From: Rubrobacter aplysinae
GTDB taxonomy: Bacteria; Actinomycetota; Rubrobacteria; Rubrobacterales; Rubrobacteraceae
NCBI RefSeq assembly: GCF_001029505.1
Contig: NZ_LEKH01000017.1
Location: 1 to 53,039 of the forward strand
Direction: 5' to 3'
DNA length: 53,039 nt
The translations under genes were made by a program, and so were the position numbers. The notes beneath the pieces were generated by a model. The model saw only the letters and a list, made by a program, of their open reading frames with translations, made no database searches and was not told where the DNA came from. Below, piece after piece: positions 1-6,803 of this stretch (its first letter is position 1; every line of letters starts with the position of its first letter).

Positions 1-537
1 CACGATGCCCGCCCCGAGCACGACCACCCTGCCGGGCCTCACGCCCGTGGCCCCGCCGAGCAGTACCCCGCGCCCGCCGGAGGGCCGCTGCAGATAGTGG
101 GCCCCGATCTGGGGCACGAGCCGGCCCGCGATCTCGCTCATCGGGGTGAGCAGAGGCAGCCGGCCCCGCTCGTCCCGCACGCTCTCCATCGCAAAGGCCA
201 CGCATCCCGAGTCCAGCAGGGCCCGCGTGAGCCTCCGGTTCACCGCGAGCGAGAGGAAGGCAAAGATCATGAGCCCCGGCCTGAGATACCCGTACTCCTC
301 CGGCACCGGGCCGTAAACTTTGGCTACCAGCTCGGCCTCGGCGTAGACCTCGGACGCCTCCGCCGCCATCCTGGCCCCGGCCTCCGCGTACTCCTCGTCG
401 GGTATCGCCGCAAGATCCCCCGCGCCGGGCTCGACGAGCACCCGGTGCCCGGCCCGCGAGAGCTCGTTGACGGCGTGCGGCGTAAGCGCCACCCGGCTCT
501 CGCCCGGCGTAAGCTCCTTGACCACCCCGATCCTCAA
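1..537 (-). CDS. Alanine dehydrogenase/PNT-family protein, 5' part only
   Basis: The first 179 codons are present; the 3' end lies beyond position 1. The protein aligns along its whole visible length with alanine dehydrogenases, which interconvert alanine and pyruvate with NAD. It has the ESRVALTP segment with Arg15, the LPLLTPMSEIAGR segment near residues 127-139, and the start of the NAD-binding Rossmann turn VVVLGAG at 171-177. The two residues known as catalytic in the family, Lys75 and His96, fall without any gap on Tyr75 (KVYGP instead of KVKEP) and Ser96 (FLSLA instead of YLHLA). Ordinary alanine dehydrogenase activity is therefore doubtful, and no symbol is given. The start is TTG at 537, the only start that gives the family's usual MRIGVVKE beginning; the SD is weak (GGGGG). 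A separate promoter upstream is possible. Confidence 0.75.
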   Translation of the reverse strand, partial: MRIGVVKELTPGESRVALTPHAVNELSRAGHRVLVEPGAGDLAAIPDEEYAEAGARMAAEASEVYAEAELVAKVYGPVPEEYGYLRPGLMIFAFLSLAVNRRLTRALLDSGCVAFAMESVRDERGRLPLLTPMSEIAGRLVPQIGAHYLQRPSGGRGVLLGGATGVRPGRVVVLGAGIV

Positions 538-691: not shown

Positions 692-1342
692 CTAACCGGA
701 TTGGTGGCCGTGATCTACCCCGAGCGCCCGCAGCATCTCCTTCCGCGCCCCCCGGCAACCGAGCGTGACATCCGCGCGCCCCGTGTCTTCCGCGTTTTCT
801 CTATCTTCACCATCTTTTGCGCCTTCTGGAGTCGGACTCCACGACGGCCCGAAACGCACCCGCACACCGCCTCTCCACAACCGCAGGGCCAGTCCTTGTA
901 CCGCGCCGGGCTCGGGAGCGTAGGCCCGGGCCGGGCGCGCCACCCGCGTCCTGAGCGCCGCCTCCCGCACCCCGGCCACCGAGACGACGGTCCGCAGCAG
1001 CTCGTCCAGGGCGGCGGACAGATCCTCCTCGTCGAGACCGGCCAGCGTACCCCGCACCATCGTGACCTCCGAATCAGTGGACTCCCGCAGGGACGCCCGG
1101 ACCTTCGAGTCATCCACGGCGGGTAGCAGTGGGAGCACGGCGACCCGGGTATCCCACCCGGGAGGCCACTCCAGGCTGGCCTCGAACTCGGCAACCCCGG
1201 CGTTGCGCGTCTGGATCACACCCGCCGGCTCGTCCTCCAACAACCCCACCACCAGTGGGCCCCGCGCGAGAACGCCGTGCAGCCTGAGCAAGTCGTCCCC
1301 CTTCGGCATGCGGTTCGGAAGGCGGGTATCGAGGAGGCTCAC
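692..1342 (-). CDS. Hypothetical protein of 216 aa, family not recognised
   Basis: This sits between pyrG and the alanine-dehydrogenase-like gene. I do not recognise the family. Residues 1-150 look like a folded soluble domain with regular hydrophobic spacing (for example GVLARGPLVVGLLEDEPAG and LDEELLRTVV-type helices) and show no signal peptide or membrane segment. Residues about 170-195 are a charged, probably disordered stretch encoded by 9-bp repeats, followed by a short basic tail. The start is GTG at 1342, giving MSLLDTRLPN; the SD is poor. It begins 58 bp after the pyrG stop and is probably in the same transcript. Overlapping frames on both strands show no better protein. Confidence 0.6.
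   Translation of the reverse strand: MSLLDTRLPNRMPKGDDLLRLHGVLARGPLVVGLLEDEPAGVIQTRNAGVAEFEASLEWPPGWDTRVAVLPLLPAVDDSKVRASLRESTDSEVTMVRGTLAGLDEEDLSAALDELLRTVVSVAGVREAALRTRVARPARAYAPEPGAVQGLALRLWRGGVRVRFGPSWSPTPEGAKDGEDRENAEDTGRADVTLGCRGARKEMLRALGVDHGHQSG
785..820 (-). repeat. Degenerate 9-bp repeats in the tail of the 216-aa protein
   Basis: There are four consecutive 9-bp units in codon phase, typified by GGTGAAGAT and GCGGAAGAC. They encode a KDG-EDR-ENA-EDT pattern in the acidic C-terminal region. Confidence 0.7.
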
Positions 1343-1400: not shown

Positions 1401-3068
<1,668 letters not shown>

Positions 3069-5073: not shown

Positions 5074-5934
5074 TCACAGGAAGGTCCTCCTCACCGCCCG
5101 CCACCAGCTCCACTCGTCGGTGCGGCCTATTTTTATGCTCTCCTCGGAGAGACCCACCCTGACGGTGGACCCTGGTTCGAGCTCGTAAGGCTCCCCGCCG
5201 TCCAGCGACAGCAGGGCTCCGCGGGTGTTGAGGGTGAGCTCGGTGCGCTGCTCTCCTCCGAGCACCATCGGGCGGCTGACCAGCGAGTGCGGCGCTATGG
5301 GGACCAGGGTGTAGCATGGCACGTCGCCGGAGATTATGGGGCCGCCGGCGGAGAGTGCGTACGCGGTGGAGCCGAGGGGCGTAGCGGCTATGAGGCCGTC
5401 GCACTGGTAGGAGGCGAGACGTTCCCCGCCGACGGATACCTCGACGGAGGCGATCTGGTGCGGCCGTTTCTTGAGCAGGACCGCGTCGTTGACGGCGAGC
5501 CGCCGCTCTCCGCCGCTCTCTATCTCCAGGAGCCGGTACTCCTGCACGTGCAGGGCCCCTTCCAAGACCTGCTCAACGCCAGGCTCTATGTTCTCCGGGC
5601 TCATCCCGCTCATAAAGCCGACCGTCCCGAGGTTCACCCCAAGGAGTACCTTCCCGGGGTGGGTTTTCGAGGCCCTGAGCATGGTCCCGTCGCCGCCGAG
5701 CACGAAGATCACGTCCGCCGCACCGTCCACGGGACTCTCGGTGTCGTGGGTGTCTTCGGTGTCGTGGGTGTCTTCGGTGTCGTGGGTGTCGTAAGAGACC
5801 TCGGCGCTCCCCACCACCTCGACGTCGTGCTTCTCCAGGACGGCCACGAGCCGGCTGGCATATTCCGGGTCCACGTCCGGGTTCTTGACGATGCCGGCTC
5901 GGCGCAAGGTGGGATCTTCCGGGCTCCAGCTCAC
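5074..5934 (-). CDS. nadK: NAD kinase with a repeat-encoded insertion
   Basis: This enzyme phosphorylates NAD to NADP with ATP or polyphosphate. The 286-aa protein has the GGDGT loop at residues 80-84 and the NDAVLL motif at 149-154, followed by DGLIAATPLGSTAYALSAGGP, the family's substrate loop. Residues 50-66 are a run of THDTE-type repeats encoded by six 9-bp units just before the first conserved strand. Homologues have only a short linker there, so I infer a surface-loop insertion. The GTG start at 5934 overlaps the tlyA stop in a GTGA arrangement, implying coupled translation. Confidence 0.93.
   Translation of the reverse strand: MSWSPEDPTLRRAGIVKNPDVDPEYASRLVAVLEKHDVEVVGSAEVSYDTHDTEDTHDTEDTHDTESPVDGAADVIFVLGGDGTMLRASKTHPGKVLLGVNLGTVGFMSGMSPENIEPGVEQVLEGALHVQEYRLLEIESGGERRLAVNDAVLLKKRPHQIASVEVSVGGERLASYQCDGLIAATPLGSTAYALSAGGPIISGDVPCYTLVPIAPHSLVSRPMVLGGEQRTELTLNTRGALLSLDGGEPYELEPGSTVRVGLSEESIKIGRTDEWSWWRAVRRTFL
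5740..5793 (-). repeat. 54-bp minisatellite inside nadK (six 9-bp units)
   Basis: Six 9-bp units alternate between GGTGTCGTG and GGTGTCTTC on the plus strand, with a single mismatch in the last unit, so an 18-bp higher-order unit is also visible. In nadK they encode alternating Thr-His-Asp and Thr-Glu-Asp triplets. This is the longest and cleanest member of the 9-bp repeat set in the window. Confidence 0.95.
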
Positions 5935-6803
5935 CCCTGGACCGCCTCGGAGATCTCGGAAATCTCGGAGATGCGCTCCGCGGTAAGCGTCCGGCCGGAG
6001 CCGCGCAGGAGCCGCAGCGGGTACTCCTGGTTGCCCGAGCGCCGCCCGGTAACGGAGGCCCGGGTGAGGTCCACCGCCCCGAACCCGAGCCGCTCGAACT
6101 CCTCGGCCACCCGGGTTATGGCGGCGGCGCGGGCGAGAGGGTCGCGGACCACGCCGCCGCGCCCGACCTGCTCCGGCCCGGCCTCGAACTGGGGCTTTAC
6201 GAGCAGCACCATCTCCCGCAGGTTCTCGGCGGACCCGGCCACGCCCGCCAGCGCAACCGGCAGCGAGATAAACGAGAGGTCCCCGACGAGCAGGTCAGGC
6301 TCGAACGGGAGATCCCGCACAGAGAGGTAACGGATATTGGTCCGTTCGAGCACCTCGACCCGGGGGTCGTTGCGCAGGCTCCAGTCCAGTTGTCCGTAGC
6401 CGACGTCGGCCGAGATCACCCGCGAGGCCCCCCGTTGCAACAGAACGTCGGTGAATCCCCCGGTCGAGGCTCCGGCGTCCAGGCAATCACGCCCCCCGAC
6501 CTCGACGCCGAACTCGTCCAGCGCGCCGGCGAGCTTCTCCCCGGCGCGGGAGACGTACGGGCTCCGCTCTTCGACGGAGATCTCCGCGTCTCCGGTGTGA
6601 CGGCTACCGGACTTGGTAACCACCTCGCCGCCGACCCGGACCGAACCGGCCAGAATCATGCCCTGCGCCCGGCTGCGGCTCTCGGCCAAACCGCACTCGA
6701 CGAGCAGATTGTCCAGACGCTCCTTGGAGGTCGCAGCCGTAACTCTTTGTGATCCGTATCGTGTCCCTCGCGTTCCCCGTGATCCGGTTCCGTCCGTAGC
6801 CAT
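5931..6803 (-). CDS. tlyA: TlyA-family rRNA 2'-O-methyltransferase
   Basis: The protein has an N-terminal S4 RNA-binding domain (KERLDNLLVECGLAESRSRAQ) followed by an FtsJ/RrmJ-type SAM methyltransferase domain with DAGASTGGFTDVLLQ, GDLSFISL and VLLVKPQFE. TlyA methylates ribosomal RNA in both subunits in mycobacteria; some homologues are annotated as hemolysins. I place the start at ATG 6803, preceded by GGAGG 12 nt upstream, over a TTG at 6842 without an SD. Both ends of the protein are low-complexity, encoded by 9-bp repeats (GSRGTRGTR at the start, ISEISEISE at the end). The stop overlaps the nadK start. Confidence 0.93.
   Translation of the reverse strand: MATDGTGSRGTRGTRYGSQRVTAATSKERLDNLLVECGLAESRSRAQGMILAGSVRVGGEVVTKSGSRHTGDAEISVEERSPYVSRAGEKLAGALDEFGVEVGGRDCLDAGASTGGFTDVLLQRGASRVISADVGYGQLDWSLRNDPRVEVLERTNIRYLSVRDLPFEPDLLVGDLSFISLPVALAGVAGSAENLREMVLLVKPQFEAGPEQVGRGGVVRDPLARAAAITRVAEEFERLGFGAVDLTRASVTGRRSGNQEYPLRLLRGSGRTLTAERISEISEISEAVQG
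5949..5975 (-). repeat. 9-bp repeats at the 3' end of tlyA
   Basis: There are three units of the GAGATCTCC type (CGCATCTCC, GAGATTTCC, GAGATCTCC) in codon phase, encoding ISEISEISE just before the end of TlyA. Confidence 0.85.

Follow-up and report, generated by a model that had tools for sequence, protein, structure and literature searches.

Alanine dehydrogenase (AlaDH) and the dI domain of the transhydrogenase subunit PntA belong to the same superfamily (AlaDH/PNT), and the loss of Lys75 and His96 in PNT is already known. As quoted in PMC10401832 from He 2018, substitution by Ala of Arg15, Lys75, His96 or Asp269 abolishes AlaDH activity, and PMC4691113, quoting Agren, refers to the His96 and Asp270 mutants of the Mycobacterium tuberculosis enzyme as inactive. 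The protein described here is encoded at the edge of a window of 53,039 nucleotides (the whole stretch of Rubrobacter aplysinae DNA that was analysed). It has in common with M. tuberculosis AlaDH (Rv2780; EC 1.4.1.1; TIGR00518) the fold, the length, an ungapped N-terminal alignment, the NAD motif and the residues Arg15, Glu118, Met133, Ser134, Asp270 and Asn300, with 49% identity across the two fragments in which the gene was recovered. It differs, together with its orthologues (the window type), in having Tyr, Gln, Phe or Ser instead of Lys75, Gly instead of Glu76, Ser instead of His96, Asp instead of Ala268 and Lys or Arg instead of Ala299.

Two further systems invite comparison. The canonical Ald of the Rubrobacterales is a member of the same family under selection of comparable strength, but it possesses Lys75 and His96, is 43% identical and is encoded beside genes of amino-acid metabolism. 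The canonical ald of other Actinomycetota occupies the same locus as the window type, with pyrG upstream and, in several of them, scpA-scpB-rluB downstream; it differs by the presence of Lys75 and His96 in 20/20 sequences and, where scpA follows, by an interval of about 2.5 kb between the two genes. In the open-licence literature we found no description of a lineage-wide, Ald-derived protein that lacks Lys75 and His96, retains Asp270 and resides in the ancestral ald locus.

Reconstruction of the gene and the replaced residues

The window begins at the first base of contig C17, which means that the assembly truncates the gene; its ORF starts with TTG and remains open past the window edge (Table 1). 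The encoded fragment matches the Pfam domain AlaDh_PNT_N (E=1.3e-43) and the beginning of AlaDh_PNT_C. A search of the same genome with AlaDh_PNT_C yielded a second fragment at the extreme end of contig C19, and since it starts at position 185, about five residues are missing between the two contigs. Because the two fragments fit together and intact orthologues have the same genes on either side, we infer that both contig ends belong to one gene. Superfamily membership is thus given by the N domain and the start of the C domain on C17, by the C domain on C19, and by the fold. The C19 half, which the preliminary description had wished to see examined for Asp270, retains this residue as well as Asn300 and carries Asp268 and Lys299; that the truncation conceals an absent Asp270 is therefore excluded.

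Table 1. Coordinates of the features discussed in the text (window positions unless stated otherwise)
Feature	Position	Strand	Basis or remark
AlaDH-derived protein, N-terminal 179 residues	1..537	minus	ORF and Pfam; truncated by contig edge
Codon 96 (TCG), His96 to Ser	250..252	minus	alignment to M. tuberculosis AlaDH and orthologues
Codons V74-Y75-G76, Lys75 to Tyr	310..318	minus	alignment to M. tuberculosis AlaDH and orthologues
Hypothetical protein, no Pfam match	692..1342	minus	conserved (31-42%) beside pyrG in most Rubrobacterales
pyrG (CTP synthase)	1401..3065	minus	upstream neighbour of the ald locus, conserved across Actinomycetota
Remaining 194 residues of AlaDH-derived protein	contig C19 end, L057:8893-9477	minus	AlaDh_PNT_C search
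Short tandem repeats	655-681, 5738-5804, 5946-5972; L057 scpA C-terminus		

Residues 1–178 of the window protein align without any gap to residues 1–178 of M. tuberculosis AlaDH (2voe). KVYGP stands where the latter has KVKEP, and FLSLA where it has FLHLA, with no displaced Lys or His within either motif of this alignment. Orthologues were recovered from 35 of the 39 Rubrobacterales genomes, the four others being incomplete assemblies (77–89%). Position 75 is occupied by Tyr (23), Gln (4), Phe (4) or Ser (4) and never by Lys, position 96 by Ser in 35/35, these counts omitting one frameshifted fragment that misaligns. The gapless alignment together with the orthologues rules out misalignment as the cause of Tyr75 and Ser96, and the consistency of the 35 orthologues likewise excludes chance or a sequencing error. 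The preliminary description, which had seen the N-terminal half only, was thus right in placing Tyr75 and Ser96 without a gap at the positions of Lys75 and His96, and equally in noting that Arg15 and the overall sequence are conserved. Indeed, Arg15, Glu118, Asp198, Asp270 and Asn300 are invariant among the orthologues, the NAD motif (GxGxxG and Asp198) is retained, and the newly acquired residues are nearly as constant (Asp268 in 32/33, Lys or Arg299 in 33/33). The alignment contains 135 positions conserved in at least 95% of the sequences, and dN/dS amounts to 0.09–0.18 in close pairs, the canonical copy being in the same range; by these sequence measures the gene is kept under strong purifying selection. 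In one genome (G024, L095:7123-8306) it is split by a frameshift near residues 152–156, which is either an error or a pseudogene. Two canonical, pyrG-linked ald sequences (L154 and L156) have Asp268 with intact Lys75 and His96, so that Asp268 by itself is not linked to the absence of these two residues.

Regarding family models, three full-length orthologues reach 410–437 bits against the NCBIfam equivalog model of AlaDH, TIGR00518 (cut-off 391.85 bits), and against the NCBIfam AlaDH model the truncated protein of the window gives 223.9 bits on its own, well above transhydrogenase. Scores of at most 149 bits against the pntA and PRK09424 models remain far below the cut-offs of 444.4 and 383, which rules out a PntA misread as Ald. 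Passing the TIGR00518 cut-off counts against a loss of AlaDH activity, but the model does not test single residues: among those associated with EC 1.4.1.1, Arg15, Asp270 and Asn300 are present, and Lys75, the ligand of pyruvate or alanine, and His96, which serves proton transfer, are not. The AlphaFold model of the R. taiwanensis member (mean pLDDT 94.9) has as its top PDB match in Foldseek the holo form of M. tuberculosis AlaDH (2vhw; TM 0.96–0.97, rmsd 1.4), a match to transhydrogenase dI being also obtained (TM ~0.77). As far as this predicted structure goes, the fold is that of AlaDH; the model is silent on activity.

Paralogues, phylogeny and genomic context

The second, canonical ald that the preliminary description had suggested looking for exists in the same genome (C9:70031) and has both Lys75 and His96. 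Its neighbours resemble a Glu/Leu-type dehydrogenase, a transporter, an aminotransferase and an aldehyde dehydrogenase (named by inspection). A third member of the superfamily, PntA, is encoded on contig C6 with its membrane subunits and has lost Asp270 along with Lys75 and His96. Both the canonical ald and PntA are widespread across the Rubrobacterales, the former with Lys75 and His96 in 30/30 rows. A broken, partial gene of the canonical type follows an aldehyde dehydrogenase gene on contig C28 (L008:5622-5974), and in each of three genomes (G025, G027 and G001) two contigs stop about 36 residues into the canonical ald; these paired contig ends suggest that the start of this gene is repeated in several genomes.

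In the tree of AlaDH/PNT proteins, which had also been proposed earlier, the window type forms a single clade (100/100) on a long stem (0.9) and joins the pyrG-linked ald of other Actinomycetota (95/91), its nearest clade, while the canonical Rubrobacterales copy constitutes a separate clade (100/100) outside the actinobacterial group. Locus and tree suggest that a vertically inherited ald may have been altered in place and that another ald, probably imported, took over its role. A tree uniting both Rubrobacterales clades is not rejected (AU test, p=0.248), and an old duplication is a possible origin of the two copies.

A profile built from 14 complete members was used to scan 396 genomes of Actinomycetota, including 39 Rubrobacterales, and 199 of Bacillota. 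Complete members score 655–710 bits and come exclusively from the Rubrobacterales; the window type was not found in the 357 other Actinomycetota (best score 480 bits) nor in the 199 Bacillota genomes (best score 427 bits). The 20 matches from other Actinomycetota that were inspected, the top ones included, all contain KVKEP and His96. A scan seeded with peptides and covering about 85,000 species, which is biased to close relatives, gave window-type matches confined to Rubrobacter and related MAGs, and plasmid records contained only matches below 60% identity.

The gene order in the Rubrobacterales is pyrG, the hypothetical gene, in some cases a gene for a DUF3866 protein, the window-type gene, scpA, scpB, rluB, aroA, cmk, plsC and der. 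pyrG lies upstream in 30 of the 31 loci with enough upstream sequence (the sole exception being L104 from G006) and scpB lies downstream in all 31 loci having downstream sequence. The DUF3866 gene is found in R. marinus (L097:6284-7696) between the hypothetical and the window-type genes, where the window genome has just 154 bases. In other Actinomycetota the canonical ald is located downstream of pyrG, with scpA, scpB and rluB following in four members with large genomes; the altered gene therefore occupies the normal place of ald in the phylum. At one locus of the other Actinomycetota (L034) a NUDIX gene is inserted between pyrG and ald. The genes around the window type are housekeeping genes, and no metabolic partner is linked to it at the locus. 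Some open frames, the longest of 889 residues, gave the appearance of a domain fusion and represent read-through of a GC-rich frame upstream of the true start, as the orthologues share the start residue and the DUF3866 gene of L097 uses another frame there.

The junction with scpA was read in 19 loci. In 18 of them the stop codon of the window-type gene overlaps a start codon (ATGA, GTGA, TTGA, TGATG or TAATG), the remaining one (L092) being ambiguous. A ribosome-binding site of the GGAGG or GAGG type suited to scpA lies within the final codons of the window-type gene. From these two features we infer that the gene is probably coupled translationally to scpA. As gene structure, the link to scpA is real; that it extends to a function with condensin is speculation.

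Possible functions of the altered protein

Two of the four residues required for AlaDH activity (Arg15, Lys75, His96 and Asp) are missing, which makes this activity very unlikely, and its loss is well supported by the mutants in the literature, by the lineage-wide replacement and by the canonical copy in the same genome. In all likelihood, then, the window type would lack alanine dehydrogenase activity, and since the order-wide loss of Lys75 and His96 is accompanied by strong selection beside scpA, the protein very probably has another role. The preliminary description had offered two alternatives, action on another substrate or a non-catalytic regulator, and both fit the present data. An NAD-linked enzyme derived from AlaDH and acting on a substrate other than alanine or pyruvate is the best explanation, to which we would give an even chance. 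The ligand site is seemingly in use, because Asp270, Glu118 and Asn300 are kept whereas PntA has lost Asp270. The product of the ancestral actinobacterial ald locus would have lost AlaDH activity and been put to other use, with a reshaped pocket that binds NAD(H) and a small carboxylate, Arg15 being the carboxylate-binding residue and Glu118, Asp270 and Asn300 retained pocket residues. Asp270 could serve as the remaining acid/base for chemistry on the other substrate, and the canonical ald, at its separate place in the genome, would handle alanine turnover. Against an enzyme it counts that the neighbours are housekeeping genes with no metabolic partner among them, that position 75 varies between Tyr, Gln, Phe and Ser, so that no new catalytic residue is fixed there, and that the invariant pocket residues are compatible with a non-catalytic ligand sensor as well.

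Such a non-catalytic sensor of NAD(H) is the main rival. This protein would bind NAD(H), and perhaps a carboxylate as well, without catalysis, and would signal redox or nutrient conditions, the receiver possibly being the ScpA/ScpB condensin, which is encoded on the same transcript; we consider it possible, though tentative. The disappearance of both the catalytic Lys and His, with nothing fixed at position 75 and the NAD motif retained, speaks for it, as do the constant presence of scpB downstream and, in nearly all loci examined, the overlap with the scpA start and the scpA Shine-Dalgarno sequence in the last codons. The invariant Asp270, Glu118 and Asn300, however, exceed what binding of NAD alone needs, and neighbourhood alone does not imply a function with ScpA, because the ald found at the same locus in other Actinomycetota is catalytically intact. 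The more specific proposal, in which the protein responds to NAD(H) as a partner of the Rubrobacterales ScpAB/SMC condensin and is synthesized alongside ScpA through translational coupling, is decidedly improbable. That the window type is still an alanine dehydrogenase, in which Lys/Arg299 or other groups compensate for Lys75 and His96, seems unlikely: the scores above the TIGR00518 cut-off, the retention of most pocket residues and the positive residue gained at position 299 would agree with it, but substitutions at the equivalents of Lys75 or His96 inactivate the known enzymes according to the two sources cited above (PMC10401832, PMC4691113), and both the window genome and most of the order possess a canonical ald. 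A stand-alone carrier of NAD(H) resembling transhydrogenase dI could explain the common absence of Lys75 and His96 and the Foldseek match to dI, yet 437 bits to AlaDH stand against 149 bits to PntA, Asp270 is present where PNT lacks it, and there is no membrane partner nearby, the pnt gene set being located elsewhere; we hold this very improbable. Scarcely credible is a decaying pseudogene or an assembly artefact retained as a translational leader for scpA. The truncation in the window assembly, the frameshift in L095 and the service of the 3' end to scpA translation point in this direction, but the gene is full-length and intact in nearly all genomes, and its many conserved positions and dN/dS values of about 0.1–0.2 in close pairs already contradict it.

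The window type represents a clean case in which the catalytic Lys/His pair is lost throughout an order while the rest of the pocket and the coenzyme site are still selected, the original task being left to an intact copy. It offers a natural starting point for asking what the AlaDH scaffold does without Lys75 and His96. The NCBI equivalog model labels its members alanine dehydrogenase, and metabolic models of the Rubrobacterales would be led astray by such automatic annotation.

Finally, tandem repeats of 9 or 18 bases were observed inside housekeeping genes, namely in NAD kinase (HDTEDTHDTEDTHDTE), at the end of TlyA (ISEISE) and at the C-terminus of ScpA (REQREQREQ, L057), and a TATACACCT repeat is located between genes; such short repeats may be a genome-wide habit.
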